A stretch of 38,155 nucleotides of DNA, taken from assembly GCA_030593075.1 (NCBI GenBank), contig JAUVHW010000007.1, forward strand, positions 1 through 38,155, in the 5' to 3' direction. The position numbers were made by a program, and so were the translations under genes. Each line of letters starts with the position of its first letter. Position 1 is the stretch's first letter. The notes beneath the pieces were generated by a model, which saw only the letters and a list, made by a program, of their open reading frames with translations, made no database searches and had not been told where the DNA came from. Positions 1 to 9,941 of the stretch are shown one piece after another. Origin of the DNA: Ardenticatenales bacterium (GTDB taxonomy: Bacteria; Chloroflexota; Anaerolineae; Promineifilales; UBA4811).

Positions 1-62
1 TCCTGGATCAGGCGGAGAAACTCCTGACCGCGCTTACCCTGCAAATGCTCGTGTTGTTTCAT
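1..62 (-). CDS. 5' end of an unidentified gene (cut by window edge)
   Basis: Only the first 20 codons are present, beginning MKQHEHLQGKRG and running off the left edge. The ATG at 62-60 is preceded by a very strong Shine-Dalgarno AGGAGG (plus-strand cctcct, 70-75) at 7 nt spacing, and by a promoter-like pair at 89-118, so this is a real start of an independently transcribed gene. The peptide is charged and has no signal sequence or recognisable motif. The family cannot be told from 20 residues. It lies downstream of the GTPase gene at 307-906 on the same strand. Confidence 0.7.
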   Translation of the reverse strand, partial: MKQHEHLQGKRGQEFLRLIQ

Positions 63-306: not shown

Positions 307-906
307 TTACCCCGGCGCGCCGGTGGAGCGGATGCGGCTCGACACGCCGTCAATCGCCGCCTTTAGGGTGTCGAGAACCCCGTACCCCTCGGTTGCCACC
401 GACTGAAGAACGGGAAAAGTACGGCCGTCGAGGCGCATGATGCGCCGCATGTAGGCCACGGGCGCGGCGTCGCTCAGGTCGCGCTTGTTGAACTGGATCA
501 CCAGCGAAACGCGCTTGGCATCGGTCCCCGCGTCCTTGAGATTCTGGTGTAGGTCCAGCAACGAGAGCAGGTTGTGCTTCATCCGGCCGATCTGCGAATC
601 GGCCACAAACACCACCCCATCCGCCCCCTGCAGCACCAGTTTGCGGCTGGCGGCATAGACAACTTGACCAGGGACCGTATACAGATTGAACTTCGGCTGG
701 TAGCCTTTGATCGACGGCAGCTCTAGCTGCATATAGTCGAAAAAGAGGGTCCGGTCGCCGTAGGTCTTGAGCGCCACCATGTTGCCCCGCCGCTCCGGGG
801 GTGTGTGCTTGTGGATGCACTCCAGATTGGTCGTCTTGCCGCTGAGAGCCGGGCCATAGTAGACGATCTTTAGGTTGATTTCCCCCGTTTCACGATTTAC
901 AAACAC
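307..906 (-). CDS. MglA-like small Ras-family GTPase
   Basis: This 199-residue protein is a bacterial Ras-like GTPase of the MglA group, a cytoplasmic nucleotide-dependent switch that in characterised systems controls polarity and motility. The P-loop GPALSGKT lies at residues 18-25. The switch II/G3 region reads TVPGQ (77-81), the MglA-type replacement for DxxG. The G4 motif NKRD is at 140-143. The length fits MglA (about 195). The start is GTG at 906, with only a weak upstream GGCGTG context. It is closely related to the GTPase at 3509-4084: both have the block YAASRKLVLQGADGVVFVAD. It follows four roadblock-domain genes, whose products are expected to act as its GTPase-activating or exchange partners. 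A 290-nt repeat-filled gap separates it from the roadblock gene at 1197-1574, so co-transcription is likely but not certain. Confidence 0.93.
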   Translation of the reverse strand: MFVNRETGEINLKIVYYGPALSGKTTNLECIHKHTPPERRGNMVALKTYGDRTLFFDYMQLELPSIKGYQPKFNLYTVPGQVVYAASRKLVLQGADGVVFVADSQIGRMKHNLLSLLDLHQNLKDAGTDAKRVSLVIQFNKRDLSDAAPVAYMRRIMRLDGRTFPVLQSVATEGYGVLDTLKAAIDGVSSRIRSTGAPG

Positions 907-957
907 GCCTGCGAACTCTCAGCACCCAGCGACCGACAGACTCCTCTGAGGGGCCGA

Positions 958-1196
958 AAAAGCCCACACCGCCGAGAACGTGGAGAACGCAGAGAAAAAC
1001 CACTGAGTCTGCGGTTCTCTTGCATGCTCTGCGGCCGGAATACGCTGGCGTGGGTAGCGCAAACCACCACAACTCTGCGGTCTCTGCGATCTCCGCGGTG
1101 AAACTTGCTTCCTACAGTAATCAGTGAAATCCTCATAGTCAGTGTAATCAGTGGTTCAATCAGCGCAATCCGTGTAGCCAGTGCAATCCGCGGCTC
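958..1196. repeat. Degenerate short-period repeats in a 290-nt intergenic gap
   Basis: The gap 907-1196 holds no supportable gene. It is built of short words repeated about every 9-12 nt. Around 983-994 the minus strand reads CTCTGCGTTCTC. From 1073 the plus strand reads CTCTGCGG, then CTCTGCGAT, then CTCCGCGGT. From about 1115 to 1195 there is a run of AATCAGTG / AATCCGTG / AATCCGCGG variants. Related words recur at 2768-2785 (CTCTGCGTTCTCTGCGGT) and near 5104-5142. The words occur on both strands and no reading frame is kept, so this looks like non-coding repetitive DNA rather than a decayed gene. Confidence 0.65.
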
Positions 1197-1574
1197 CTAC
1201 CAGACCGCCTTGATCTCCTTGATAGCCCGGTTGGAAATGCGGCGGTAGTAGCGGTTCGCAGGTACCATCAGCGCCAGGATAAGCTCTTCGCCGTCAATCT
1301 GCAGGTAGCGGCAGACCAGCCGCCGCCGGTCCCGGCCGACCACGGTCACCTCGTCCACTCCGGACATGCCCAACTGGTCGTGCGCTTCGTTGCTCACGCT
1401 CTGTAGCAGGGCCACCATCGCGGCCGCGGTCTCGGCATCGTAGGCCGAGGGCACGGTGGCGATGGGCAGGCCGTCGCTGCTGGCCAGGACCGCCCCTTCT
1501 AGCTGCCCCCGGTCGATCATGTTCTGCAGCGCCTCGTCAAAGGTCGCCGGGACCTGGTAGTCACTCATGCGCAT
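1197..1574 (-). CDS. Roadblock/LC7-domain protein (MglB-like)
   Basis: This 125-residue protein spans a single roadblock/LC7 domain, the fold of MglB and dynein light-chain regulators that bind Ras-like GTPases. The typical pattern is visible: an N-terminal helix (residues 11-24), a first strand GAVLASSDGLPIATVP, a long central helix rich in Ala (about 47-66), then VDEVTVVGRDRRRLVCRYL and EELILALMVP strands, and a C-terminal helix. Two in-frame ATGs compete, at 1574 and at 1568. The Shine-Dalgarno GAAGGAG (plus 1579-1585) is 4 nt from the first and 10 nt from the second, so either is possible. The stop of the upstream roadblock gene at 1599-2093 is 24 nt away, so the two are co-transcribed. 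A likely partner is one of the two MglA-like GTPases in the cluster. Confidence 0.85.
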   Translation of the reverse strand: MRMSDYQVPATFDEALQNMIDRGQLEGAVLASSDGLPIATVPSAYDAETAAAMVALLQSVSNEAHDQLGMSGVDEVTVVGRDRRRLVCRYLQIDGEELILALMVPANRYYRRISNRAIKEIKAVW

Positions 1575-1598
1575 TCATCTCCTTCTCGAGGAACGCCG

Positions 1599-2093
1599 CT
1601 ATTCCCAATCGCCAAAGACGTTCTCTAGCTCATCGGCCAGGACGGCGCCAAAGTCGTTGTCAACGGGCGGCCGGGGCTGCGCCTGCACCGTCTCGAACCT
1701 CTCCGCGAGCGGGATCAGCTGCTTGACCGCCTGCTTGGTAAAGAGGCGCACCAGCCCCAACTGCACTTTCTGGTCAAAGATGACCACCAGCAAGAAACTG
1801 TCGCCGACACCGGAGAGGTAGCTGTTCTGCCGTTCGCCCTCGTGGAAGAGCAGCTTGAACGCCTTCTCCTCCCCGATCTGCCGGGCGATCTCGGTGGCGG
1901 CGGCCATGTTGCTGGCCGTCAGAGCCGAGAGGATCACCGGGTCGACGTCCTCCCTGGTGCTCTGGGTGGCGATCAGCTGGCCACCGATGTCGGCCAGTAG
2001 GATGCAGCCGGCCTGGGTCTTGCTCTGGAGATGAGCCAGCACACCCTCGATGTCCTCCACCAGATCGGCCGGCACCACTAGTCCGCTCGTCAT
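1599..2093 (-). CDS. Roadblock/LC7-domain protein with C-terminal tail
   Basis: This 164-residue protein carries a roadblock/LC7 domain over about residues 8-130, followed by a Pro- and acid-rich tail. The stretch FKLLFHEGE and the strand FLLVVIFDQ match the C-terminal half of the receiver-roadblock fusion at 4106-5062 (FKSSYHEGH, FLVAVVFGK), so the two are paralogues. I take the ATG at 2093 (MTSGLVVP), not the longer open frame, because GAGGAGGGAG lies just upstream (plus 2101-2110) and the longer frame only shadows the previous gene. The upstream gene stops at 2095 and this start is at 2093, one base apart, a clear sign of translational coupling. It probably acts as a GTPase partner or scaffold; its specific activity is unknown. 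Confidence 0.87.
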   Translation of the reverse strand: MTSGLVVPADLVEDIEGVLAHLQSKTQAGCILLADIGGQLIATQSTREDVDPVILSALTASNMAAATEIARQIGEEKAFKLLFHEGERQNSYLSGVGDSFLLVVIFDQKVQLGLVRLFTKQAVKQLIPLAERFETVQAQPRPPVDNDFGAVLADELENVFGDWE

Positions 2094-2094
2094 C

Positions 2095-2547
2095 TCACTG
2101 CTCCCTCCTCGAATCCAGCGCGCCCAGCAGCCGTCGCGAGGAGGCGTCGAGATGCCCTTCCGCCAGCAGGTCGGCTCTCTCGCCAGCCCGCGCCGCCAGG
2201 CTTCGCCGCACATCCGGGTCGCCCTTGATGAGACCGGCCGCCGTGTCCAGGATTATGCGGAGCGAGGCCAGTTCTACCCGGGGCCCGCAGAGCACGACCA
2301 GCGCGACGTTCCCCAGGACGCGGGCCACTATGCGCGCCCTCTCATAGCAGAAGCAGAGCTCCTCGGTCGCCTGCCCAGCCGCTTCCAGCGCAGCCCAGGC
2401 AAAGGCAACCTGGCGGCCGACGCCGTGGAAGGCCACCGCATCAGGAGTGGCCTTGGTGGCGCTAGCAATGACCGCGCCCTGCTGGCCGCAGAAGAAGCAG
2501 CCACCCACGCCCGCGACGGCGTTGACGTCAGAAAGGACCCTCTCCAT
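2095..2547 (-). CDS. Probable roadblock-fold protein
   Basis: This 150-residue protein sits inside the roadblock/GTPase operon. The first 100 residues follow the roadblock pattern loosely: a helix, then GCFFCGQQGAVIASATKA as the first hairpin, a long helix around residues 48-70, and the strands RARIVARVLGNVALVVLCG. The last 40 residues are a basic helical tail. The ATG at 2547 has GGAG about 6 nt upstream. The match to the family is weaker than for its neighbours, so roadblock is an inference from pattern and context. The stop codon is separated by one base from the next start (2093), so the two are translated together. Confidence 0.65.
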   Translation of the reverse strand: MERVLSDVNAVAGVGGCFFCGQQGAVIASATKATPDAVAFHGVGRQVAFAWAALEAAGQATEELCFCYERARIVARVLGNVALVVLCGPRVELASLRIILDTAAGLIKGDPDVRRSLAARAGERADLLAEGHLDASSRRLLGALDSRREQ

Positions 2548-2579
2548 CTACACTCCGACCTGCGGCTTCTCGCCGCGGT

Positions 2580-2785
2580 GCCTCTCTTTCACGGCAGAGA
2601 CCGCGTGGGGGCAGGCCTTGTGCCCGTCGCCTTTCTCACCGCGGAGATCGCAAGGTCTGCCCGGTTCTCTGCGGGCGCCGCGCCAAGAGCGTTGCCGCCA
2701 AGGGCGGCCGCCCCTAACGGCCGACGAAGGACGGATATTGCGTCGGTCATTCGTCATTCGTCGTTCTCTCTGCGTTCTCTGCGGT
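2580..2785. repeat. Dispersed repeats in a 247-nt gap
   Basis: The gap 2548-2794 between two operon genes holds no gene. It contains the plus-strand 17-mer GGGGCAGGCCTTGTGCC (2608-2624), an exact inverted copy of 240-256. It also holds a tandem GTCATTC/GTCATTC/GTCGTTC run (about 2746-2766) and CTCTGCGTTCTCTGCGGT (2768-2785), which shares words with the gap at 907-1196. These look like accumulated intergenic repeat fragments rather than regulatory sites. Confidence 0.6.
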
Positions 2786-2794
2786 GCGATCTGT

Positions 2795-3487
2795 TCACTC
2801 GTATCGCCGCAGGGTCGTGCGGACCGACTCGATCAACGCCTCGACCGGCGCGCGGCGGCCAAGAACAAGCCCCAGGTAGTTGCTCTCGCGGCAGGGGACC
2901 ACCATCGCCTTGCGCGCTTGACCCGAGAGAATCAGTCGCTCCCACTGGCCCGCGCACAGCAGGAAGCCCAGCTCCTCGGACCGGCGGCCCACAAAGGCGG
3001 TGAGAGCGGCCTCCTTGGCCGGGTCGCCGGCCATCTTCTGGCCCAGAACCTCGCCCTGGCGGGAGCAGATCAGCGCGCCGTCGATGCCGGGGACTCTCTT
3101 CAAGGCCCGGACGATGCGTTCGGCGGTCTGATCCGTTTCGCTCATTTCGACTTCGTCCCAGTCCACCTCCGGTCCGGCCGCGCTCTCGTCCATGCGGCGC
3201 ATCCCCTCCAGCAGCAAGCGCGACCAGCCAGTGGTCACCGTGCGCTTGGGCGGCGCGACCCCCTGCTCCAGCTCGAACTCGCCCTCCTCCCAGGTCAGCA
3301 GCTCATAGATCGCCTCCTCCCCCTCCTGAGAGTCCAGCACCACGTGGGCGATGTTGCCGTCCGCAAAAAAGAGCGCCGCCTCACGCCCCTGGTGTCTGAT
3401 CGTAAGCCGGGCCTGGTTCATCTCGTTGCAGTTTATCGAGATGAGGCTCGATAAGCTCATATCCTTCAAATCGCCCTTGAGTGCCAC
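2795..3487 (-). CDS. DUF4388 (PATAN-like) and roadblock fusion protein
   Basis: This 230-residue cytoplasmic protein has two parts. Residues about 3-100 fit DUF4388, a PATAN-like module common in response regulators and gliding or pilus regulators: GDLKDMSLSSLISI at the start, then LTIRHQGREAALFFADGNIAHV, and a hydrophobic helix YELLTWEEGEFEL. Residues about 120-228 fit a roadblock domain: IVRALKRVPGIDGALICSRQGEVLGQ, a helix, then LGFLLCAGQWERLILSG and a final amphipathic helix. The start is GTG at 3487; the Shine-Dalgarno is poor. It lies 21 nt downstream of an MglA-like GTPase gene, so the GTPase and its likely partner are made from one mRNA. The fusion suggests the DUF4388 part links GTPase control to another partner. 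Confidence 0.85.
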   Translation of the reverse strand: MALKGDLKDMSLSSLISINCNEMNQARLTIRHQGREAALFFADGNIAHVVLDSQEGEEAIYELLTWEEGEFELEQGVAPPKRTVTTGWSRLLLEGMRRMDESAAGPEVDWDEVEMSETDQTAERIVRALKRVPGIDGALICSRQGEVLGQKMAGDPAKEAALTAFVGRRSEELGFLLCAGQWERLILSGQARKAMVVPCRESNYLGLVLGRRAPVEALIESVRTTLRRYE

Positions 3488-3508
3488 AGTGCGCCTACCT
3501 TCTCGCCA

Positions 3509-4084
3509 CTAACCCAGCTTCTTCACTACCTGGTTGATGATGGCTTTCAGCGTATCGAACACGCCCACTCCTTGCACCGCCACCGCAGGGAGACAGGTGG
3601 CGCCGTTCTGCCCCAGGCGGTCCTGCAGCTCCGCGGGACCGTAGACGTCGGGTAGGTCCTGCTTGTTGCACTGCAGGACAAAGGGGTAGCTCTCCGGCCG
3701 GAAGCCCATCTGCTGCAGGTGAACCAACAGCCCCGCCAAGGTCTCTTTGTTGTCGGGCAGGCGGTCGCGCACGGAATCGGCCACAAAGACCACCCCATCC
3801 GCCCCCTGCAGCACCAGCTTGCGGCTGGCAGCATAGTAGACCTGGCCCGGCACGGTATAGAGGCTGAACTTGGGTTTAAGCCCCTTGATCTTGCCTAGCT
3901 CCAACTGCAAGAAGTCAAAGTAGAGGGTGCGGTCATCGCGGGTCTTGAGCGAAACCAGGTCCCCGCGCATGTCCGGGTTGGCGCGAGCGTGGATTATCTC
4001 CAGGTTGGTGGTCTTGCCGCTCAGAGCCGGCCCATAGTATACGATCTTGAGGTGCAGCTCACCCAGCCGCTGGTTGATGAACAT
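3509..4084 (-). CDS. MglA-like small Ras-family GTPase
   Basis: This 191-residue protein is the second MglA-like GTPase of the cluster. It has the P-loop GPALSGKT near residues 18-25, TVPGQ in place of the usual DxxG, and the G4 motif CNKQDL. It shares long stretches with the GTPase at 307-906 (LKIVYYGPALSGKTTNLE at the P-loop), so they are paralogues. The start is ATG at 4084 with a poor Shine-Dalgarno. It is flanked by a receiver-roadblock gene 21 nt upstream and a DUF4388-roadblock gene 21 nt downstream. This is the arrangement expected of an MglA-type switch with its regulators. No lipidation or membrane signal is visible. Confidence 0.93.
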   Translation of the reverse strand: MFINQRLGELHLKIVYYGPALSGKTTNLEIIHARANPDMRGDLVSLKTRDDRTLYFDFLQLELGKIKGLKPKFSLYTVPGQVYYAASRKLVLQGADGVVFVADSVRDRLPDNKETLAGLLVHLQQMGFRPESYPFVLQCNKQDLPDVYGPAELQDRLGQNGATCLPAVAVQGVGVFDTLKAIINQVVKKLG

Positions 4085-4105
4085 CTCGCCGCGTCCCGCT
4101 CAGGC

Positions 4106-5062
4106 CTACTCGTCACCGCCCAACTCGGGCGGGATTAGCCCCTGGGCGATGGCGTCCTCGATGGTCATCAAGCCGCCGCCGATTCCATCATAACCCCCTT
4201 CCAGCAACTGGTCGAGTCCCGCATCTATCGCCTCGGCCAGATCGTCCTGAAAGCCGGTAGCGACCGACGAGGCATCAGGCATCAGGGGAGCCAAGGCGGC
4301 CGCCGTCTGCTCGGTGTAAAACCAGACAATGCCCGGTTTGCTCTCCTTGCCAAAGACGACCGCCACCAGGAAATCACCGTTCACGTCGTAGGCATAGACG
4401 TTATAGTCGGCCTTGCCGTGCCCCTCGTGATAGCTGGACTTGAACACCGATTCCCGGCCCAGCAGCCGGGCCAGTTCGGCCGCGGCCGCAAAGTTCGCCG
4501 CCACCAGCGTCCCGATGGCCGAGACGTCCATCGAATCGACCGCCCCGGCCGTGTCCACCGCGTAGCCGGTCGCAGTGAGTAGTATTACACTGTAGGCGCC
4601 GCTATCGGCTTGCAGGCTATCCAGAAGCTGGTGCACCGCGTCAGTTGCCACCAACTCAAGCCGGACCTCGGGCTCGACTCCACTCGCCTGCTCCACGGCC
4701 CCTGCGACAACCTCCCGGATCTGATCCATGGTAAAGGGCTTGTCCAGGTACCCGGCGAACTCGCGCCCCGCCTTCTCGCGCAGTTTGGCGGTACCATAGG
4801 CGGTCATCAACACGATCTGCGTGTCGGGCGAGACCCGCTGCACTTCCAGCGCCAGGTCCATACCCGACATCCCAGGCATCTGAAAGTCGGTCAGGATCAG
4901 CGCATAGGCCTCTTCCTGAATCTTGGCCAAGGCCTCGTCGCCGCTGGAGGCAGTATCTACTATGTAGGAATCGCCCATGCGGCTGAGGCCGTCCGCCAGC
5001 GCCTCGGCCACGCGGGGTTCATCGTCCACCACTAGAACGCGCGTCGGCTGCTCCTTTGCCAC
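4106..5062 (-). CDS. Response-regulator receiver fused to a roadblock domain
   Basis: This 318-residue protein joins a CheY-like receiver (residues 7-125) to a roadblock/LC7 domain (about 137-260) and an acidic C-terminal tail. The receiver is complete: acidic pair DDE at 13-15, phospho-acceptor Asp59 in LTDFQMPG, Thr in VLMTAYG, and Lys in LDKPF. The roadblock half resembles the gene at 1599-2093. The start is GTG at 5062 behind GGAGAGG. The fusion would let phosphorylation control a GTPase-regulating domain directly, a role comparable in logic to RomR with MglB in Myxococcus, though the architecture differs. The kinase encoded just upstream (5245-6381) is the obvious candidate phosphodonor. 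This is inference from gene order. Confidence 0.9.
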   Translation of the reverse strand: MAKEQPTRVLVVDDEPRVAEALADGLSRMGDSYIVDTASSGDEALAKIQEEAYALILTDFQMPGMSGMDLALEVQRVSPDTQIVLMTAYGTAKLREKAGREFAGYLDKPFTMDQIREVVAGAVEQASGVEPEVRLELVATDAVHQLLDSLQADSGAYSVILLTATGYAVDTAGAVDSMDVSAIGTLVAANFAAAAELARLLGRESVFKSSYHEGHGKADYNVYAYDVNGDFLVAVVFGKESKPGIVWFYTEQTAAALAPLMPDASSVATGFQDDLAEAIDAGLDQLLEGGYDGIGGGLMTIEDAIAQGLIPPELGGDE

Positions 5063-5103
5063 CGCTACCTCTCCGCCCTTCCGATACCTCCAGCCAATAT
5101 GGG

Positions 5104-5142
5104 AGACGCAGATACACGCAGATAGATGCAGATTGACGCAGG
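5104..5142. repeat. 10-bp tandem repeat in the 182-nt gap 5063-5244
   Basis: The plus strand has GCAGAT at 5108-5113, 5118-5123 and 5128-5133, followed by GCAGG from 5138, an exact 10-nt period. On the minus strand this reads as ATCTGCRTST units. The rest of the gap carries similar CGTCAATC words and no gene. It lies between the hybrid kinase and the receiver-roadblock gene. Confidence 0.7.
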
Positions 5143-5244
5143 TTTTCCTGTTTTGTCAGCGTTCATCTGGGTCCTATTCAGCGCGCCCACGAGGGGCCAT
5201 GCTGCGTGCTCTGCCGAGCCCGTGCCCCTTCGCGCTCATCCGCG

Positions 5245-6381
5245 TCAATCCGCCTCCTGCCCCTCTCCCAGCATCTCCACAGCCACCCGACGAATCTGGG
5301 CCAGCCTTACCGGCTTGTCCAGCACCTGCCGGATGGCGACGCTGTCCGCCTGGTCCCGCAGCCAGTCGCTGCCATAGGCGGTGAGCATCACCACGGCCGT
5401 CTGGGGATAGAGGTGCCGAACCTGGTCCGCCAACATTATGCCATCCACACCCGGCATCTTGTAATCGGCAATCAACAGGTCAAATGGCTCCTCCTCCAGG
5501 AGCCGCAACGCCTCCTCTCCGCTGTTGGCAGCGACGACCTCAAAGGTCTGCAGCTTCTCCAGGCCGGCCTGCAAGGATTGGGTGACGAACTCCTCGTCGT
5601 CCACCAGCAGTATGCGCCGCCGGCGCGGCCGGCTCTCGACCGGCCGGTACGTCTGCTCGGCGGACGGGGCCAGCCGGACCGTGAACTGGCTGCCCGCGCC
5701 CGGCCGGCTCTGGACCTCCAGCTCCCCGCCGTGCGCATCCACCACTGCCTTGGCGACGGTGAGGCCCAAGCCCAGCCCGCCGTAGCGGCGGGTGGGCGAG
5801 CCACCGACCTGAAAAAAGGGGTCAAAGATGTGTTCCAGCTCCTCCGCCTCCATGCCGATGCCGGTATCCGTTACCGCCAGGCAGACCGCTCCGGACTCGG
5901 AATAGGTCCGAACCTCCACCCGGCCGCCCCTGGGCGTGAACTTGAGCGCGTTGTCCAGCAGGCAGTCAGCCGCCTGCTTCAGCTGCAAAGGATTGCCCGC
6001 GACCAGCGGGAGGCCCTGCTCGACTCTCGCCTCCAGTTCCAGCCCGGCCTGCGCCGCGGCCGGGCGCCTGGTCTCTACCACGGCCGTGACCAGGTCGCCC
6101 AGCGCCGTGGGCGCCGTGTCGGCTTCGGTCTGCGCCTGGACCTCCATCAGGGTCCCGATGCGCTCCACCACGGTGTGCAGCTGCTGGGCGTGGCTAACGA
6201 TGGCGACGACCGCGTCGCGCTGCTGCGGCTCCAACGAACCCATGTCACCGTTCTGCAGCATCTCGGAGAAGCCCAGGACGACAGCCAGCGGCGCCCGCAG
6301 CTCATGAGATATGTTCTCGATGATGCTGAACTGCAGGTCGTTCATTTCTGGCTTGGTCTGGTCCGAGCGATCTTTCTGCAT
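5245..6381 (-). CDS. Hybrid histidine kinase-receiver, no sensor domain
   Basis: This 378-residue cytoplasmic protein starts almost directly with the dimerisation/phosphoacceptor domain: His26 in ISHELRAPLAVVLGFSEML. The ATPase domain follows, with an N-box around NPLQLKQAADCLLDNALKF, DTGIGM, and GLGLTVAKAVVDAHGG. A C-terminal receiver occupies about residues 257-370, with phospho-acceptor Asp306 in IADYKMPG, Thr334 and Lys356. There is no PAS, GAF or membrane segment, so its input must come from another protein. The start at 6381 has no clear Shine-Dalgarno; an ATG at codon 13 is an alternative. The receiver is similar in layout to that of the next gene (VLMTAYG / VMLTAYG), suggesting a phosphorelay into the roadblock fusion at 4106-5062. 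Confidence 0.93.
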   Translation of the reverse strand: MQKDRSDQTKPEMNDLQFSIIENISHELRAPLAVVLGFSEMLQNGDMGSLEPQQRDAVVAIVSHAQQLHTVVERIGTLMEVQAQTEADTAPTALGDLVTAVVETRRPAAAQAGLELEARVEQGLPLVAGNPLQLKQAADCLLDNALKFTPRGGRVEVRTYSESGAVCLAVTDTGIGMEAEELEHIFDPFFQVGGSPTRRYGGLGLGLTVAKAVVDAHGGELEVQSRPGAGSQFTVRLAPSAEQTYRPVESRPRRRRILLVDDEEFVTQSLQAGLEKLQTFEVVAANSGEEALRLLEEEPFDLLIADYKMPGVDGIMLADQVRHLYPQTAVVMLTAYGSDWLRDQADSVAIRQVLDKPVRLAQIRRVAVEMLGEGQEAD

Positions 6382-6450: not shown

Positions 6451-9400
6451 CTACTCGTCATCGCCGGCCGGCGGCGGGCCTTCCACCGGCAATACGACGG
6501 AAAAGGTACTGCCCTCACCCTCCTTGCTCTCTACCAGAATGTCGCCGTCGTGGGCCTCGACGATGCCGTAGCTGATATAGAGGCCCAGTCCGGACCCCTT
6601 TTCCTTGGTGGTGAAGAAAGGCTCAAAGAGGCGCGCCTGGCGCTCCGGGGACAGCCCCACGCCCTCGTCGACGAAATCGATCCGGACGGCCGGCTCCCTC
6701 TCGCCCGTTTCGACAAAGCTGGTGCGCAGTTGAAGCGTGCCGCCGCTCGGCATGGCATCCGCGGCGTTGAGCACCAGATTCAGAAAGACCTGCTTGAGGT
6801 GGTCCGCGTTGGCCCGCACCTCGGGTAATTCATCGGCCCACTCGCGCTCCACGGTCACCCCGCAGTGCTGCAGCCTCCTGTCAGCCAGGGCCAGCACGCT
6901 CTCCAACACCGGGTGCAGGTCGGTCGGCTGGACTCGGGCGCGCGCCGGCCGGTAGAAATCGCGCATCCGGTGCACAATGGTCGACACCCGCTCGATCTCA
7001 GATTCCACAATGCCCAGGTACCGCTCTACCCGGTCCCGGCCCCCGGCCTCGCTCAAATCCTCCTGGGCCAGGGTGACGTAGGTCTGCACCGCCTGGAGTG
7101 GGTTGTTGATCTCGTGGGTGATAGAGGCGACCAATCGGCCCAGCGCGGACATTTTCTCGCTGTGGATCAGCTGCGCCTGGGTCTTCTGCAGCGCCTCCAT
7201 CTGCTCGTTCAGATCCTGATAGAGGCGCGCGTTGGCGATGGCGATGGCGGCCGAGCTGGACATGCCCTCCAGCACCTCAACGTCGTGCTGGTCAAAGGGG
7301 CCGGTTGCCTTGTTCAGCACCTCGACCACGCCGATGATCTGGTCCCTGTACCTCAGCGGCACTGCCACCAGGGTGCGCGTTATCATGCCGGTGGACTCGT
7401 CGATGCCGCTGTAGAAACGGGGGTCCTGCTGGGCGTCTGCCACCAGAACCGGCGCCCCGGTCTGCACGGCCGCGCCCGCGATGCCGGCGGTGCTGGGAAA
7501 GCGGGCGCCCACCAGCGCCTCGGCGGCCGGGCTGTCGGTGGCGGTGAAGGCCAGTTCGCCGGTCTCGGGCTCGTAGAGCAGCACCGAGCCCGCTTCAGCG
7601 TCCAGCAGGGTCCTGGCTTCGGCGATGGTCTGGTCCAGCACGGTGCTCAGGTCCAGGGTGGAAGTCACCGCTCCGGCCGCTTTGTTGAGGGCGTCCAGCT
7701 CTCGAGCCCGCTGCTGCACCTCGCCAAAGAGGCGCGCGTTCTCCAGCGCCACCGCTGTCTGATCGGCCAGGGTCTGCAGCACCTGCAGGTCTTCGGCCGC
7801 AAAGTGGTCAGCCTCCGTGCTGTCAGCGTTCAGGACCCCAATCACCCGGTCGCCAACCTTCAAGGGGACACACAGCTCGGAACGGGTCTCGTCCCCGGGG
7901 AAAGGAACGTAGCTGGGTTCCTGGCTCACGTCGGGCACGTTGAGCGCATCTCCGCTGCGGACGACGGCTACGCAGAGGCCCTGCTCCCCACCCAGCGGCA
8001 GGCGCAGGTCCACTTGCTCCAGCTCGCCTTCCTTCAGCCGGCGCCGGTAGACGATCTCGCCGGCCGCCTCGTCCACCAGACCACAGGCAGCGTACTCGCA
8101 CCGCAGCACCTGGGCGGCCGTCTCCAGCGCCCTCTGGATGAGAAGCTCCTCGTCGCGCAAGAGCGTCAGCTCTCGGCCCAGCTGGTAGATGGCGCCGAGC
8201 CGCTCTTCCATCCGCACCCGCTCGGTGATGTCCAGTGCAACTGCCCGCAAGCCAACGGCTTCCTCAGCGAGGATGATGGGGCTGCCGTATATCAGAGCCT
8301 CAAACGTGCTGCCATCCTTGCGCGCCGCCGTGTACTGGTAGCCGGCGATCATGCCCCCCGCCATGGCGTTTTGCATCTGCTCGGTCATCCCTTCCCTGTG
8401 CTCGGGGATGACCAGGGCAAGTGCGTTCAGACCCTTCTCCAGGTCCTCCTGCGCGTAGCCGGAGGCCTCAAACCCGGCGGTGTTCGAATAGGTGAAATTG
8501 CCCTCTCGATCACACTCAAAGACCGGCAGCGGCAGCAACTCCGATAGCTCCCTGAATCGCTCCTCGCTCTCCCGCAACGCTTGCTCGATCCACACCTGCT
8601 CGGTGATATCCAGAGCTATCCCCCTCAACCCGGCCGGCTCGCCGTCGCGCAGGATGAGCCCGCTGTAGAGAAGTACGGGGTACGTATTGCCGTCCTTCTT
8701 CAGGGCGGTGTAGCGGCGGTCGTGGACTATGCCCCCCATCAGCAGCCGGTGGACGTCCTGCTCGACTCTCTCTCTGTCCTCGGGGCTGAACAGCTCGAGG
8801 ATGTGCAGGCCCTTCTCCAGGTCATCGCGACTGTACCCAGAGATCTCGAGCCCGTGGCGGTTGGTGTAGATGAGATTCCCCTCCCCATCGACCTCGAAAA
8901 CGGTTTGCGGCAGCAGGTTGGCCAATTGCCGGAAGCGCTCCTCGCTCTCTCGCAACGCCTCCTCCGCCTTCGTCCGGTCGGCAACCTCCTGGCTCAGCTT
9001 CTCGTTGGCCTGCTCCAGTTCGGCCGTGCGCTCCTTGACGCGAGCCTCCAGCTCATCGTGGGCCTTCTGCAGCGCCTCCTCAGCCTGCCTCTTCTCCTCC
9101 CCCAGCCTCTGCTGCTCCAGCAAGCGCTCGATCACGGTGGGCAGCAGGTCGAGATACGAGCCCTCCGCGTCCTTGACCACATAGTCGCCGGCGCCAAGCT
9201 TCATGGCCTGCACGGCGATCTCTTCGTTGCCGGTGCCGGTGACCATCACCGTGGGCGGCAGGGGCTCCTCGAAAGCCAGCGCGCGTATCACGTCCAGACC
9301 ACTGCGGACCGGCATGGTTTGATCCACGAGCAGCACGTCGTAGGAGCCGGCGGCCCACATGCTCAGGCCCTCTTCACCGTCCGCAGCCACCTCAACAGTG

Positions 9401-9492
9401 AATCCGGCCGCGGTCAGCGTTTTCTTCGTGAGACGAGCCAGGCCGGCGTCGTCCTCCATGCACAAGATGCGAATGCGTTTCGATACTGCCAT
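6451..9492 (-). CDS. Receiver-PAS-PAS-GAF-GAF histidine kinase
   Basis: This 1013-residue soluble hybrid kinase has, in order: a receiver (about 6-123, Asp57 in LLVDQTMP), a signalling coiled coil (about 130-185), two PAS domains (about 190-305 and 310-430), two GAF domains (about 445-595 and 605-765), a HisKA domain with His793 in SITHEINNPL, and an ATPase domain (DEGVGLSPE, GSGLGLYISYGIVEAHDG). The C-terminal half resembles NtrB-type kinases. I prefer ATG at 9492, which overlaps the TGA of the upstream receiver gene (TGATG), over the in-frame GTG three bases earlier; GGGAG lies 8 nt upstream. The N-terminal receiver and coiled coil are paralogous to those at 10140-12224 and 12267-13386. No membrane segment is seen. 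The ligand of the PAS/GAF array is unknown. Confidence 0.95.
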   Translation of the reverse strand: MAVSKRIRILCMEDDAGLARLTKKTLTAAGFTVEVAADGEEGLSMWAAGSYDVLLVDQTMPVRSGLDVIRALAFEEPLPPTVMVTGTGNEEIAVQAMKLGAGDYVVKDAEGSYLDLLPTVIERLLEQQRLGEEKRQAEEALQKAHDELEARVKERTAELEQANEKLSQEVADRTKAEEALRESEERFRQLANLLPQTVFEVDGEGNLIYTNRHGLEISGYSRDDLEKGLHILELFSPEDRERVEQDVHRLLMGGIVHDRRYTALKKDGNTYPVLLYSGLILRDGEPAGLRGIALDITEQVWIEQALRESEERFRELSELLPLPVFECDREGNFTYSNTAGFEASGYAQEDLEKGLNALALVIPEHREGMTEQMQNAMAGGMIAGYQYTAARKDGSTFEALIYGSPIILAEEAVGLRAVALDITERVRMEERLGAIYQLGRELTLLRDEELLIQRALETAAQVLRCEYAACGLVDEAAGEIVYRRRLKEGELEQVDLRLPLGGEQGLCVAVVRSGDALNVPDVSQEPSYVPFPGDETRSELCVPLKVGDRVIGVLNADSTEADHFAAEDLQVLQTLADQTAVALENARLFGEVQQRARELDALNKAAGAVTSTLDLSTVLDQTIAEARTLLDAEAGSVLLYEPETGELAFTATDSPAAEALVGARFPSTAGIAGAAVQTGAPVLVADAQQDPRFYSGIDESTGMITRTLVAVPLRYRDQIIGVVEVLNKATGPFDQHDVEVLEGMSSSAAIAIANARLYQDLNEQMEALQKTQAQLIHSEKMSALGRLVASITHEINNPLQAVQTYVTLAQEDLSEAGGRDRVERYLGIVESEIERVSTIVHRMRDFYRPARARVQPTDLHPVLESVLALADRRLQHCGVTVEREWADELPEVRANADHLKQVFLNLVLNAADAMPSGGTLQLRTSFVETGEREPAVRIDFVDEGVGLSPERQARLFEPFFTTKEKGSGLGLYISYGIVEAHDGDILVESKEGEGSTFSVVLPVEGPPPAGDDE

Positions 9493-9941
9493 CACACTCT
9501 CTCCCGGTCCGGTATTGCGACGATCGACAGGAACAGTCCTAGCCTGCGGACGGCCTCGGCGAGATCGTCATACTCCACCGGCTTGCTAATGTACGCGTTG
9601 CACCCCATGTCATAGCAGCGGGTCACTTCGCGACGGTCGTCGGTAGTGGTCAGGATGACCACCGGGATGCGCCGGGTCTCGTTGTCTTCCTTCACACTTT
9701 GCAGCACCTGGTAACCATCAACCACCGGCATGTTGAGGTCCAGCAGCATCAGCAGCGGCCAGGCGCATTCCCTCCCCGCCCAGTCCCCCTCCGAGTGCAA
9801 GTAATCCAGCGCTTGCCGCCCGTCACCAAAGACGAGTATGTCGCCGGCGACGTCGGAGCGGCGCAGGTTCTTTTCAATCAGCCGGGCGTGGCCCGGATCG
9901 TCTTCCACCAGCAGGATGGTGACCGGGTGTGGCTGGGACAC
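9492..9941 (-). CDS. Stand-alone receiver (Rcp1/CheY-like response regulator)
   Basis: This 149-residue protein is a single receiver domain with a short C-terminal helix, of the kind often paired with phytochrome-like or PAS/GAF kinases. The acidic pair is EDD 13-15, the phospho-acceptor is Asp68 in LLDLNMP, and the TTT and SKPVEY motifs are present. The start is GTG at 9941 with GGAAGGAG about 6 nt upstream. A promoter lies at 9983-10011. It overlaps the next kinase gene by one base (TGATG), so the two are co-translated and it is probably a phosphorelay partner. A truncated paralogue lies at 13395-13663. Confidence 0.93.
   Translation of the reverse strand: MSQPHPVTILLVEDDPGHARLIEKNLRRSDVAGDILVFGDGRQALDYLHSEGDWAGRECAWPLLMLLDLNMPVVDGYQVLQSVKEDNETRRIPVVILTTTDDRREVTRCYDMGCNAYISKPVEYDDLAEAVRRLGLFLSIVAIPDRERV

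Follow-up and report, generated by a model that had tools for sequence, protein, structure and literature searches.

The window analyzed here, the 38,155 nucleotides of contig JAUVHW010000007.1 from Ardenticatenales bacterium (Chloroflexota, class Anaerolineae; assembly GCA_030593075.1, 3.86 Mb in 422 contigs), carries a cassette of genes for two MglA-like GTPases, five roadblock-type proteins and a hybrid histidine kinase, in which one of the roadblock domains is fused to a receiver. All eight genes lie on the minus strand from 6381 to 307, and the gene identities and order in the original prediction, which had been made from the letters and their open reading frames (ORFs) alone, were found intact by ORF inspection and Pfam. 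The run comprises the soluble hybrid histidine kinase HK-REC (5245..6381; HisKA, HATPase_c and Response_reg), a candidate phosphodonor in which Pfam found no sensor domain; REC-Robl (4106..5062), the fusion of a receiver to an MglB-type roadblock; the GTPase MglA1 (3509..4084); PATAN-Robl (2795..3487), a fusion of a PATAN (DUF4388) domain to a roadblock; the divergent roadblock RoblX (2095..2547); a stand-alone MglB (1599..2093); the small roadblock sRobl (1197..1574; 125 residues); and a second GTPase, MglA2 (307..906). A large sensor kinase (6451..9495, minus strand; REC-PAS-PAS-GAF-GAF-HisKA-HATPase by Pfam), which may provide a second input, extends the minus-strand run back to 9495, and further receivers precede the cassette. 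Since the window is an entire contig (C66), the 3' side of the cassette is incomplete, being cut at base 1. At several points the genes are separated by 21–24 bases, and RoblX and MglB almost touch, the start of MglB having been revised from the mechanical ORF at 2213 to the likely ATG at 2093, directly past the RoblX stop. Gaps of 247 bases ahead of RoblX and 290 bases ahead of MglA2 leave space for separate promoters.

MglA1 matched MglA of Myxococcus xanthus in the PDB at 4e-56. Group 1 MglA proteins are distinguished by an arginine beside the G2 threonine and by TVPGQ in G3, as given by Wuichet and Sogaard-Andersen, 2014 (PMC4316618). The arginine, R53, was present in all 33 sequences aligned, and the window proteins read DRTL and TVPGQ at these places; both carry R53, TVPGQ and NKxD (NKQD in MglA1). 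Their lengths of 191 (MglA1) and 199 (MglA2) residues and the adjoining MglB-type genes fit a single domain of 150–240 residues with MglB within four genes. Judged by these sequence features, both GTPases have the published characteristics of Group 1. In the MglA tree, MglA1 grouped weakly with the proteins of three genomes of the class (G060, G107 and G177), and MglA2, fast-evolving with its motifs intact, formed a long branch. Elsewhere in the same genome, contig C192 (L004:1-485) holds a copy, about 91% identical, of the C-terminus of MglA1 and the start of the PATAN gene; it breaks off within PATAN and continues as unrelated sequence, so that it is either a decayed duplicate or a strain variant.

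Four of the five roadblock proteins matched Robl_LC7 or MglB models in Pfam and NCBIfam. In Pfam, REC-Robl matched Response_reg at 1e-23 and Robl_LC7 at 1.6e-4, PATAN-Robl matched DUF4388 at 5e-22 and the roadblock at 2e-5, MglB matched Robl_LC7 at 8.5e-12 and sRobl scored 3.5e-9. REC-Robl also matched the NCBIfam model of Thermus MglB at 3.6e-12, covering model positions 2-160 of 161, a score that like that of the window MglB lies below the equivalog cut-off, and the window MglB aligned with M. xanthus MglB in the PDB at 5e-21 across 149 residues, C-terminal region included. RoblX had no match in Pfam or NCBIfam. A profile of RoblX built from 12 homologues nevertheless aligned with the MglB profile at an hhalign probability of 90%, its single PDB match was a Roadblock/LC7 protein (E 0.033), and its AlphaFold model showed an H-E-E-H-E-E-E-H topology with a mean predicted local distance difference test score (pLDDT) of 67, the first 110 residues lying mostly at 67-86. 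Foldseek matched this model, with probability 1.0 and E values between 1e-5 and 4e-7, to Ragulator subunits, MglB, MglC and archaeal roadblocks. On the strength of profile, predicted fold and Foldseek matches, RoblX is a roadblock protein despite having no Pfam match. In two other loci (L133:6193-7359 and L139:9597-10754) RoblX is fused to a C-terminal stretch, and the one in L133 weakly matches a nucleotidyltransferase (PF14907, 1.6e-4, below cut-off).

To place the five domains relative to each other, a tree of 102 roadblock domains was used; with a domain this short the tree has many weakly supported forks, but the groupings cited here are starred ones. The window domains fell in five separate places. 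The roadblock of REC-Robl was nested inside the MglB clade (a 20-row clade, 96/88), PATAN-Robl grouped with four relatives (99/97), RoblX lay in a clade of 12 rows (99/87) and sRobl in one of 25 rows (97/84). The original prediction had counted five distinct roadblock types; profile, fold and Foldseek comparisons for RoblX and the tree for the subfamilies uphold that count, and the phylogeny indicates that the five are old, distinct subfamilies and not recent copies.

The protein of most interest for regulation is REC-Robl. Response_reg, Robl_LC7 and MglB-model matches within one ORF confirm that a receiver is fused onto a putative GTPase regulator, as had been predicted. The receiver is attached N-terminal to the roadblock. 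The window protein has the complete set of phosphorylation residues (acid pocket, phospho-Asp, Thr/Ser and Lys), and each of them is kept by 27-30 of the 31 rows aligned. Across the class, both MglB and REC-Robl have an LDxLF-type C-terminal helix motif that is alignable, by sequence, with the C-terminal helix of M. xanthus MglB. That helix is the exchange-active element, and its placement depends on the N-terminal strand of MglB (PMC11016934). In two genomes, G107 (95% complete) and G177, REC-Robl was the only MglB-type roadblock found by Pfam, and for this reason it is probably the protein that does the job of MglB there, the best candidate by sequence. A structure of REC-Robl was also predicted from a thin, window-only alignment; the receiver was good, the roadblock half was unreliable and the model was discarded.

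Beyond the helix, the window REC-Robl ends in the motif IEDAIAQGLI. Among 30 REC-Robl tails, 15 have the pattern [FILMV]xxAxxxG[LIF][ILVMF], in most cases 4-24 residues short of the C-terminus and behind a variable, often proline-rich linker; shuffled tails gave a mean of 0.29 with the motif and a maximum of 3 in 1000 rounds, a contrast that is inflated by kinship, although the tails are otherwise dissimilar. One relative (L056) has several copies, and the window protein has a weak Plectin-repeat match. In M. xanthus, the C-terminal helix of RomR docks on the roadblock protein MglC (PMC12719032), and by analogy the tail motif may, at a guess, be a docking peptide. No simple link was seen between the tail motif and the presence of RoblX or sRobl. 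A second REC-Robl with the tail motif is encoded in the same genome on contig C155 (L046:9066-10187), immediately after two hybrid kinases, with no MglA seen in its surroundings.

The gene context of REC-Robl was drawn from a search across related genomes, and full-length relatives were present in most of the 59 relatives searched; a scan of the contigs of the window's own genome with REC-Robl yielded, mostly or exclusively, proteins related through the receiver domain, and no gene context that could be used. MglA is patchy: within the class it was found in 20 of 160 genomes, and across the phylum in 77 of 301. Thirty MglA loci of the class were compared, some of them at contig ends, so that the counts are lower bounds, and some of them close relatives. 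The most constant partner of MglA was sRobl (27 loci), followed by the MglB type (24), PATAN (24, plus 2 receiver-fused), REC-Robl (16) and RoblX (11), and nearly all of these partners share the strand of the GTPase. Kinases often adjoin the REC-Robl fusions. In G107 and G177 the order is REC-Robl, MglA, PATAN-Robl, RoblX, sRobl, which is that of the window minus MglB and MglA2, and in G152, G206 and G060 it is PATAN, RoblX, MglB, MglA, sRobl; the window looks like the two arrangements merged, and among the 30 loci it alone has all five roadblock types in one run. Conservation of gene order, on which the original prediction had staked itself in advance, is thus found in relatives, and because the same set recurs across the class, the cassette is beyond a chance association. 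In another class of the phylum, a kinase is followed by a (pseudo)receiver-roadblock fusion, MglB, MglA and PATAN.

Three different components of the module carry a fused receiver in the window's class: a roadblock (16 of 30 loci), PATAN-roadblock (2) and a Ras-type GTPase (3). The last of these, family f40 (L142:3539-4489, L143:13623-14780 and L137:14418-15341), joins a receiver and a Ras-family GTPase in one ORF within an MglA cassette (Pfam Ras 3e-40, Response_reg 2e-21) and occupies the place held elsewhere by REC-Robl. Its GTPase part had only three close matches in the 301 phylum genomes, two of which (L192 and L193) have a different N-terminal part. Fusion to three parts implies that phosphosignalling has been tied to the module more than once, and supports it as a general input.

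Parts of this organization have precedents. According to the accessible text of Wuichet and Sogaard-Andersen, 2014 (PMC4316618), Group 1 MglA occurs in Chloroflexi, PATAN proteins are found as neighbours, some systems contain two MglBs, and C-terminal similarity to MglB is present in five Response_reg proteins, which are Response_reg-Robl_LC7 fusions. These share the architecture of REC-Robl, with MglB similarity in the C-terminal part, and appear in that text as a methods remark on five sequences in which gene context, subfamilies, helix and tail are not described. In Thaumarchaeota, REC-NitrOD3 likewise joins a receiver to an output domain whose distant kinship with Roadblock/LC7 was detected by HHpred (PMC5847659), but it is archaeal and no link to MglA was reported there. 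The novelty claimed at the outset was overstated: Response_reg-Robl_LC7 fusions and the linkage of MglB with PATAN have been on record since 2014. No description of the whole cassette, of its roadblock subfamilies or of its function was found in the open-access literature. A fair label is an elaborate version of a known MglA GTPase system, with the fusion and the PATAN linkage known and the full set not described. With the Group 1 systems of M. xanthus and Thermus thermophilus the cassette shares the G2 arginine, TVPGQ, adjoining MglB-type roadblocks and the alignable MglB helix; it differs from them in having five roadblock subfamilies, two GTPases, a receiver-MglB fusion, a PATAN-roadblock and an in-operon kinase, in a genome without PilT.

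From these features we consider it somewhat probable, on sequence grounds, that the module is a two-component-controlled MglA GTPase in which phosphorylation of the receiver controls the attached MglB acting on MglA, with the other roadblocks as adaptors. HK-REC, perhaps together with the larger upstream kinase, would phosphorylate the receiver of REC-Robl, and phosphorylation would shift the MglB part between states that promote GTP hydrolysis and nucleotide exchange on MglA1, perhaps also on MglA2. Such a shift is proposed because the receiver sits where the N-terminal strand of M. xanthus MglB positions the exchange-promoting C-terminal helix (PMC11016934). The stand-alone MglB could supply constitutive GTPase-activating protein (GAP) activity or form mixed dimers, and sRobl, RoblX and PATAN-Robl may serve as adaptors or effectors, assembling into heteromeric roadblock complexes and determining where the GTPase is placed. 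The output would be something other than PilT-type pili. We infer the phosphodonor, the direction of the effect (GAP or guanine nucleotide exchange factor (GEF) activity up or down), what sRobl, RoblX and PATAN-Robl do, and how MglA1 and MglA2 share the work. A wider proposal, which we put forward only tentatively, is that REC-Robl is a response regulator with an MglB-type GAP/GEF output, through which a single step would lead from a histidine kinase to the nucleotide state of a Ras-like GTPase, that receivers are attached interchangeably to roadblock, PATAN-roadblock or Ras-type GTPase, and that the whole is a GTPase network with heteromeric roadblocks whose output is not type IVa pili.

Two observations weigh against control by phosphorylation of an MglB-type regulator. 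REC-Robl is missing from 14 of the 30 MglA loci of the class. In the fusions of the other class (L170, L171, L173 and L189) the receiver is degenerate and has lost the phospho-Asp, leaving a pseudo-receiver on MglB; phosphorylation can thus not be indispensable to the design in every lineage. Neither the window MglB nor REC-Robl has Asn37 and Arg98, residues that contribute to the GAP activity of M. xanthus MglB; since T. thermophilus MglB, described as stimulating hydrolysis by MglA (PMC4316618), also lacks both, their absence speaks neither for nor against such activity. The loss of the phospho-Asp in the other class would suit a receiver that is a mere dimerization or localization tag, with phosphorylation having no regulatory role and REC-Robl being another roadblock scaffold, and pseudo-receivers such as FrzS do function in M. 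xanthus (PMC11580455). This reading is rather unlikely, because the window's own class keeps the active-site residues in almost all fusions and kinases often adjoin them. Very improbable is an accumulation of duplicated roadblocks and GTPases, gathered by chance or drift and sharing no single function; MglA2 is fast-evolving and the truncated copy on contig C192 shows that duplication and decay do occur here, yet five separate subfamilies, a recurring order and near-complete co-orientation over 30 loci argue otherwise. Least probable of all is a receptor complex like the actinobacterial conservons CvnA-D, with the GTPase itself serving as the kinase's output. There too a kinase, an MglB-type roadblock and a small GTPase share an operon (PMC13343842 and PMC4316618), but conservons have a Group 2 GTPase, the DUF742 protein CvnC and no receiver, whereas the window GTPases are of Group 1, a receiver is present and Pfam found no DUF742 match among the cassette proteins; conservon membership was rejected on the Group 1 motifs and the missing DUF742 match.

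The remaining alternative concerns the output. The original prediction drew an analogy with the M. xanthus polarity module (MglA, MglB, MglC, RomR, RomX and RomY), and the cassette might be a front-rear polarity switch of this kind that directs gliding or type IVa pili, REC-Robl being RomR and MglB joined in one protein. Its MglA and MglB proteins are genuinely related to those of M. xanthus, where a receiver protein, MglB and a second roadblock, MglC, act jointly on MglA, with RomR binding a roadblock through its C-terminal helix. RomR, MglB and MglC form a complex (PMC12719032), which a fusion of receiver and roadblock could plausibly represent in condensed form, and in Synechocystis response regulators with PATAN make contact with PilB (PMC10519157). 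The cassette differs in that receiver and MglB are one polypeptide, the genes stand together and no type IVa pilus retraction motor is found: PilT was not detected in the window's genome, and its single T2SSE-family ATPase is Tad/CpaF-like and lies beside genes that read by sequence as CpaE-like and TadB-like. In the sample of 301 phylum genomes, MglA occurred in 77 and PilT in 43, and both in only 1 against 11 expected (p = 4e-5, not corrected for phylogeny); within the class PilT was present in 1 of the 20 MglA genomes (Fisher p = 1). Because both genes are spread by lineage, this overlap is no test of antagonism, but the near-exclusion removes PilT-driven twitching as a general output. A type IV pilus as the likely output was rejected on these grounds, the analogy finds no support where output is concerned, and we regard the polarity switch as unlikely.

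In M. xanthus, chemosensory signalling reaches the MglA switch by way of several separate proteins. With receiver and MglB in one polypeptide beside a kinase, direct phospho-control of GAP/GEF activity becomes a question for a single assay. The presence of five conserved roadblock subfamilies is reminiscent of Ragulator and other heteromeric roadblock/longin complexes by which eukaryotic GTPases are regulated, and the near-exclusion of MglA and PilT suggests that MglA modules in this phylum serve an output other than the well-studied one.

Several minor features accompany these loci. Seven of them (L040, L042, L047, L048, L131, L132 and L141) have conserved genes downstream of the cassette, for a 453-residue protein without a Pfam match and a glutamine amidotransferase (PF13522); the guess that the former is an amidoligase was dropped, as no Pfam match supports it. 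A conserved protein of about 158 residues, also without a Pfam match, occurs in nine loci. In the window itself, bases 1..62 (minus strand) hold the first part of another ORF (MKQHEHLQGKRGQEFLRLIQ...), which is preceded by an AAGGAGG-like site and truncated where the contig ends. Consensus scans of the window for promoters and terminators gave chance level only, and no Rfam match lies within it. Between 12267 and 13386 (minus strand), an ORF for a receiver overlaps, in another frame, one for a guanylate/adenylate cyclase; the pair resembles one REC-cyclase gene split by a frame change, or an assembly error. The intergenic stretches 907-1196 and 2548-2794 contain degenerate CCGCAGAGA-type repeats, and a 38-base stretch at 240-277 is repeated in inverted orientation at 2587-2624.

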